From contig JAGBFB010000029.1 in assembly GCA_017936665.1 (NCBI GenBank), positions 124,001 to 188,000 of the forward strand: a stretch of 64,000 nucleotides of DNA. The letters are read 5' to 3'. The translations under genes and the position numbers were made by a program. Shown here one piece after another: positions 2,781 through 3,756 of the stretch (position 1 is the first letter of the stretch; every line of letters starts with the position of its first letter). Below the pieces are notes generated by a model. It ran no database searches and was not told the DNA's origin. It saw only the letters and a list, made by a program, of their open reading frames with translations. The DNA comes from Spirochaetaceae bacterium (GTDB taxonomy: Bacteria > Spirochaetota > Spirochaetia > Treponematales > Treponemataceae).

Positions 2781-2820
2781 AAACAAAAAAGCAAAGTGCA
2801 GAAATTACACTTTGCTTTTG
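2781..2820 (-). terminator. Rho-independent terminator of the lipoprotein gene
   Basis: A perfect stem, AAAAGCAAAGTG pairing with CACTTTGCTTTT around a 9-base loop, is followed on the minus strand by a T-rich run. It lies just beyond the stop of the lipoprotein gene and ahead of the toxin gene, so it separates these transcripts. Confidence 0.8.
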
Positions 2821-2847: not shown

Positions 2848-3393
2848 TTACTTTTTCTTTAATCGTGTGAATGTTCCTGCATATTCGTTTTCAAGAATTA
2901 GTTCGTCATTTATAATTGAAACAGAAAATGATGTTCCTGTTACTGCATTATCTTCTATCATATAAAGTCTATCATCTTCAAAATACCAAGAACCAGTTAC
3001 GGATTCTGTTTCTGTTTCTGTTTCGGAAACTTCTTCTCCGGGTATTTCAATATAATTTCCTTCTCCATCAATTCCATAGAATCCTCCTGTCCATCCAGAT
3101 TTCTTTTGTGTTATTTCTGATGTAGAACTAAAACTATCACTATTAAATGTATAAGTTACTGTTGTTGTTATTTTTAAAGTTATTTCATCACAATAATTGT
3201 TACTGTTTTCAGGAAGATATCCTGCACCTAAATCAGTTTCAGTTGTTAGAGTTTGATACCAAGTAGGTCCCATAAGTTGTTGTTCAAGAGATTCTTTTAC
3301 AATTTTATCATTATCTCCATTAGGTTTATCACCACAACTTACAAACATAAACACTACTGCGATTGCTAAAGCAATAACAATTCCTTTTTTCAT
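2848..3393 (-). CDS. Putative lipoprotein behind a poly-G promoter
   Basis: A 181-residue protein with a lipoprotein signal peptide: basic MKK start, hydrophobic core and FVSC lipobox with Cys20 as the predicted lipidated residue. The mature part is polar, with an acidic ETETETES stretch encoded by three tandem TTCTGT hexamers (minus-strand view ACAGAA) at 3004-3021. I do not recognise a family; the beta-rich C-terminal half (SWYFEDDRLYMIED and following) suggests a small beta-sandwich or lipocalin-like fold, which is a guess. Translation should be efficient, with AGGAGG before ATG 3393. The promoter holds eight G in its spacer, so expression may be phase variable. It is followed by its own terminator. 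Confidence 0.75.
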   Translation of the reverse strand: MKKGIVIALAIAVVFMFVSCGDKPNGDNDKIVKESLEQQLMGPTWYQTLTTETDLGAGYLPENSNNYCDEITLKITTTVTYTFNSDSFSSTSEITQKKSGWTGGFYGIDGEGNYIEIPGEEVSETETETESVTGSWYFEDDRLYMIEDNAVTGTSFSVSIINDELILENEYAGTFTRLKKK

Positions 3394-3438
3394 TATAAAA
3401 ATCCTCCTGTGTTATTTTTTTTATTTCACACAATTTCT

Positions 3439-3466
3439 ATTTTATCGCAATACCCCCCCCAGTCAA
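3439..3466 (-). promoter_or_regulatory. Sigma-70-type promoter with an 8-G tract in the spacer
   Basis: On the minus strand TTGACT (3466-3461, five of six consensus) is followed by 16 bp and then TAAAAT (3444-3439, five of six). The spacer is eight consecutive G plus TATTGCGA. The predicted start of transcription is about 40 bases before the lipoprotein ATG at 3393. Slippage that adds one G would give the optimal 17-bp spacing. Confidence 0.75.
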
Positions 3467-3756
3467 GTATGGATTTGTTAAATTTAAAGGTTGAAAAACT
3501 CCCTTGAAAAAGTGTTTTTGGGATTCCTATTATCTATATTTTCTAATACTTGTAACTTTCTGTGATATGTTCTATTCTATTGAAGAATTTAAAAATTTGC
3601 GTTGCAAGTTTTTTTTACCTACTTATTTATTTTAGAAATGAGTAACAAAGCCCGTAGACAAAAAATAGACAAACGAAGCATTGCAAGCGTAGCGTAGCAC
3701 TAGCGAGTTTGTGGATTTTTGGCGAGAGGGATTTGTTTTCTCGATTGGAGTTTTTT
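3467..3756. other. Intergenic stretch without a recognised gene
   Basis: The gap between the lipoprotein start and the next gene is over 300 bases and no coding pattern is convincing. Near 3674-3713 there is a GC-richer patch in which ACAAAC pairs with GTTTGT around GCGTAGCGTAGCACTAGCG, similar in style to the GCGAAGCG repeats elsewhere. The remainder is AT-rich and should include the promoter of the gene at 3757. Confidence 0.5.

Follow-up and report, generated by a model that had tools for sequence, protein, structure and literature searches.

The poly-G tract upstream of a predicted lipoprotein gene is probably the variable part of a slippage-switched promoter of the sigma-70 type, and this promoter is one of a dispersed set of lipoprotein promoters that would vary in phase independently of one another. 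Slippage of a poly-G run between the -35 and -10 elements had been proposed by the first-pass annotation as the cause of phase variation here, and this is the best-supported reading of the locus, backed by a module present in 20 copies, its link to lipoprotein genes, a constraint on spacing, and a pair of sister promoters with G8 and G9. That annotation had, however, described a single phase-variable locus; the tract is real, but it belongs to one of 20 copies, and the shared class of lipoprotein promoters had been missed.

In the window, by which we mean the whole 64 kb stretch of DNA that was analysed, the reported arrangement of a TTGACT hexamer on the minus strand, eight G directly after it, a 16-nt spacer and a TAAAAT hexamer is exact in both sequence and coordinates (Table 1). 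The run was also rightly called conspicuous: apart from G8, the window has no G or C homopolymer of at least 6, and first-order base composition predicts about 0.04 G8 runs in it. The focal hexamer match by itself is unremarkable; AT-rich DNA yields promoter-like hexamers at chance level (9 such sites in 2 kb around the focal locus vs. 8.3 in shuffles). The focal promoter stands above chance because TTGACN-G5+ sites number 20 in the genome and 0 for the reversed-pattern control, and all 20 are followed by a TANNNT -10 at a spacer of 15–17 nt and by a gene with a lipobox at 48–133 nt.

Table 1. Features of the focal promoter and of its transcription unit, in window positions.
Feature	Position	Strand	Remarks
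-35 hexamer TTGACT	3461..3466	-	directly upstream of the G tract
Poly-G tract G8, GGGGGGGG	3453..3460	-	inside the promoter spacer
Spacer remainder TATTGCGA	between G8 and -10	-	
-10 hexamer TAAAAT	3439..3444	-	spacer to -35 of 16 nt
Pentamer CATAC upstream of -35	3467..3471	-	class consensus CCTA[C/G], conserved across the 20 promoters
Weak hairpin TGTGT...ACACA at predicted mRNA 5' end	3408..3432	-	z -1.5; several sister copies have stronger ones
Ribosome binding site AGGAGG	3403-3408	-	beside the weak leader hairpin
Predicted lipoprotein, 181 aa	2848..3393	-	signal peptide with lipobox FVSC; no Pfam family; predicted all-beta
Intrinsic terminator 3' of the lipoprotein gene	2787..2819	-	

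The focal promoter lies 73 nt from the start codon of the lipoprotein gene (ATG at 3393), and transcription would start near 3432. The unit is probably monocistronic, because an intrinsic terminator stands after the gene. The product, earlier designated a surface lipoprotein, has a predicted signal peptide and lipobox; for 'surface', the lipobox is the only visible indication, and the protein may be exposed there. A single-sequence structure model (pLDDT 69) is all beta and had no significant match in the PDB (best E 0.01, with lipocalin-like structures among the weak matches), and neither relatives of the protein nor an orthologous focal locus were found among 38 related genomes. Inverted repeats occupy the predicted 5' end of many of the 20 leaders, ahead of the ribosome binding site (L047, L049, L052, L053, L054, L057, L060, L064, and 3408-3432 in the window; for example TGAAGTGAA...TTCACTTCA and TCAAGGTG...CACCTTGA, with z down to -4), and these repeats are perhaps mRNA-stabilising hairpins. 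Just downstream of the focal gene, at 2125-2726 on the minus strand of the window, lies a pair of short overlapping genes similar to a Phd-type antitoxin and a PIN-domain toxin.

Across the 2.58 Mb genome, which was covered by searches and by the regions flanking the tracts, we identified 35 distinct runs of at least eight G, against 1.6–1.9 expected from base composition. The 20 TTGACN-G5+ sites are scattered over 14 contigs; the -35 element reads TTGACG in the other copies (TTGACC in one), and the T that follows TTGAC in the focal copy shortens its pure G run. When the copies are aligned on TTGAC, the pentamer upstream of it is conserved (C in most, then C or A, T, A in 20/20, and C or G in 20/20), although its bases played no part in selecting the 20 promoters. 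Conversely, 13 of the 14 CCTA[C/G]TTGAC sites in the genome carry a G run, and the exception resembles coding sequence. Most of the 20 copies have TG one base upstream of the -10, which constitutes an extended -10 element, so that the consensus of the module is CCTA[C/G]-TTGAC-G7..10-N7..9 with TG-TANNNT. Conservation fades beyond this block, and the copies are therefore not long duplications. On the coding strand the homopolymer is specifically G: poly-C at the same promoter position gave 1 match vs. 3 in the control and was thus not above control.

By the same crude lipobox rule that identified a lipobox gene downstream of every site, at most 4 of the 56 ORFs of at least 100 aa in the window qualify, two of which look genuine. 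Among the 20 products, six small proteins form one paralogous group, with two matching Lipocalin_4, and three proteins joined by Listeria-Bacteroides repeats form another. Eleven products have no detectable relative in the set and include CotH, OmpA, TRL and DUF6567 domains; the focal protein, which belongs to no family, is one of the eleven. Since the products are mostly unrelated to one another, common gene ancestry does not explain the shared promoter.

Searches for the longer pattern TTGACNGGGGGG...TANNNT gave 0–2 sites per genome in 273 further genomes from the family. The nearest genomes in the genus, two drafts with a completeness of 74% and 87%, lack the module and have G tracts in other contexts, so that an orthologous tract for comparison is lacking. 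A contig scan with a degenerate motif, from which the window's own record was possibly left out, returned one treponeme match (a T. brennaborense MAG, where one copy stands ahead of an exported protein) and two further, unrelated matches. Within the genome, intergenic G9 tracts at L021 position 1500 and L035 position 8010 (minus strand) resemble decayed copies of the module (CCTAGT-G9 and TAGAT-G9-TACTCGTTA, the second upstream of a long lipoprotein gene).

The spacing between -35 and -10 is narrowly distributed: 16 nt in 14 of the 20 copies, 15 nt in 4 and 17 nt in 2. The number of G ranges from 7 to 10 (8 to 9 in 18/20), and 7–9 non-G bases separate the tract from the -10 in all 20. The remainder of the spacer shrinks as the number of G rises (G10+7, G9+8, G8+9; r = -0.61, permutation p = 0.007), as expected if selection acts on total spacing. 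That a change of tract length would alter the spacing, as originally argued, follows from geometry: G7, G8, G9 and G10 at the focal promoter correspond to spacers of 15, 16, 17 and 18 nt, and spacers of 15–17 nt are found across the copies. Ordinary TTGAC..TATAAT pairs of the genome have a weak spacing peak at 17, and the focal G8, at 16 nt, would therefore be one step under a presumed optimum of 17.

Differences in tract length are seen both within the genome and between other genomes; together with the coding-sequence tracts described below they are the marks of contingency loci, although assembly tract lengths can be off by one and homopolymer assembly errors could imitate some of them. Two tandem promoters (C18:102897 and C18:103424) match at every base for 31 nt ahead of the tract and 91 nt behind it, and their sole difference is G8 vs. 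G9. An orthologous poly-G promoter in the genomes G237 and G265 likewise has G8 vs. G9, and its flanks agree over 21 bases in either direction. Long reading frames of the focal genome contain seven further G tracts. Three of these frames, in lipoprotein genes, read through, whereas in the other four genes the frame closes 4–14 codons past the tract and an alternative frame is open for at least 270 codons. These seven tracts, of G8 to G10, lie outside the window at L002, L004, L016, L019, L025, L027 and L039, several of them in frames with lipoprotein starts, and are likely translational contingency loci. At L036 position 2453 (C22:83923), a signalling-like gene has a G8 tract at its stop codon, and a gene resembling a DNA cytosine methyltransferase follows after about 110 nt; tract and methyltransferase-like gene are possibly a phase-variable methylation unit. 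MutS was found in the genome, and loss of mismatch repair was therefore rejected as a cause.

An origin of the focal arrangement by chance or assembly artefact, with a homopolymer merely near promoter-like hexamers, is extremely improbable. It could appeal to the chance frequency of such hexamers in AT-rich DNA and to a spacer of 16 nt that is one short of the 17-nt optimum of T. pallidum TP0126, but it is incompatible with a -10 and a lipoprotein gene at 20/20 sites and a control of zero, by which it is refuted for the class as a whole. It is also unlikely, though compatible with slippage switching in that both could hold, that CCTA[C/G]TTGAC-Gn-TGATA is chiefly the promoter of a regulon, read by a dedicated sigma factor or activator, with the G run as a fixed recognition or stiffness element. 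The conservation of bases beyond the core promoter that had not been selected for, the near-perfect association of the upstream element with a G run and a spacing held near 16 all speak for such a regulon. A fixed element, however, would not require a pure homopolymer, and the variation from 7 to 10 G, the tandem sisters that differ in G number only, and the coincidence of coding-sequence G tracts with frame loss in the same genome speak against it.

The tight clustering of tract lengths and the compensation of spacing to 16 would equally suit a G run acting as a rheostat of promoter strength, tuned for each gene over evolution and stable over infection or colonisation. We consider this very unlikely, given that G8 to G9 tracts of T. 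pallidum vary in length within isolates (PMC7864442). Counted against a slippage switch are a length of G8 that is low for a hypervariable tract, the T that cuts into the pure run of the focal copy, the presence of MutS, the lack of the module in the nearest genomes of the genus and the possible off-by-one error of assembled tract lengths.

For every step beyond the anatomy of the slippage-switched promoter, we infer from T. pallidum and Neisseria how it would work; in T. pallidum, 76% of 17 tested poly-G tracts are length-variable (PMC7864442). In living populations, slipped-strand mispairing would gain or lose one G in the tract, each such change would shift the distance between -35 and -10 by one base, and transcription of the one downstream lipoprotein gene would go up or down. 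With 20 independent copies, a population would hold many combinations of active lipoprotein genes; because the module precedes 20 scattered, mostly unrelated genes, each cell could have its own active set. By this analogy, independent on-off switching of many envelope proteins through gain or loss of single G is probable in this bacterium, presumably to its benefit.

A looser pattern applied to 298 genomes of the order identified several other treponemes with many poly-G spacer promoters. TTGAC...Gn...-10 promoters are multi-copy in G054 (Treponema medium), G059, G062, G211, G237 and G265 (L114-L160). Treponema medium has at least 8 sites, most of them TTGACTTTTGA-Gn-TATTAT with about 12–16 G, where the tract touches the -10; G237, G265 and G211 have TTGACAAATCCC-G8..10-TACAAT before closely related lipoproteins; and G062 has TTGACAAAAC-G12..17-TATAAT. 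Many, but not all, of the downstream genes in these treponemes encode lipoproteins or exported proteins. Compared to the focal genome, these families differ in sequence, have fewer copies and are less strictly tied to lipoproteins, and the tract occupies different places in the spacer from one lineage to another, pointing to repeated invention or to strong divergence. Treponeme genomes have been surveyed for their numbers of G/C tracts of 7 or more (PMC8049484), and a term search of that source found no promoter analysis of these tracts.

The mechanism, phase variation through a promoter spacer, is already known. The organisation, with one conserved class of slippage-tract promoter before 20 mostly unrelated lipoprotein genes, was not found described in the literature searched, and no account of a multi-copy family of poly-G lipoprotein promoters was found there for organisms other than T. 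pallidum. Among spirochetes, work on poly-G promoter switching has centred on T. pallidum, an organism difficult to grow and to manipulate. The 20 sequence-matched copies of the switch, each with its own lipoprotein gene, are a natural experiment on spacing, tract length and output, and combinations of switch states could be followed in one population. A broader proposition, which we hold to be evenly poised between right and wrong, is that a dedicated promoter class with its own element upstream of the -35 has spread to 20 or more lipoprotein genes, most of them unrelated, and has turned each into a separate slippage switch; a treponeme other than T. pallidum would thereby have a lipoprotein coat that varies combinatorially, and within the family this solution would have arisen, or diverged, more than once, with promoters of differing sequence. 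If the switching is confirmed, treponemes other than T. pallidum would also run a combinatorial, stochastic lipoprotein programme, of which Treponema medium and several others would have their own versions.

Among known systems, Vpma, an example of the phase-variable lipoprotein families of Mycoplasma, switches by DNA inversion at one locus, whereas here homopolymer length at scattered loci would be responsible. Common to such families (PMC2268961) and, as we would expect, to the present system is a lipoprotein repertoire switched at the DNA level. Neisseria meningitidis porA has a poly-G spacer between -35 and -10 and spacing-dependent transcription, according to its citation in PMC7864442, but it is a single porin gene in an unrelated organism. 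For tprE, tprG, tprJ and tprL, to which the focal locus had also been compared, the likeness holds in that a poly-G tract lies upstream of envelope protein genes, with length-dependent promoter activity there; the comparison is looser because the tpr tract adjoins the transcription start. In these genes, the tract either borders the transcription start or covers the -10, leaving the -35/-10 spacing unchanged, a placement not seen in any of the 20 copies, where non-G bases always intervene. The comparison to T. pallidum TP0126, in contrast, is apt: its poly-G tract sits between -35 and -10, with an optimum of 17 nt (PMC7864442). Both cases belong to treponemes, with an envelope protein (an OmpW homologue) in TP0126 and a putative envelope protein here, and tract length sets spacing and hence transcription in TP0126, as it would by analogy here. 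Unlike TP0126, which is one outer membrane protein gene, the present system comprises 20 dispersed lipoprotein promoters with one common sequence, in which the G run directly adjoins the -35.
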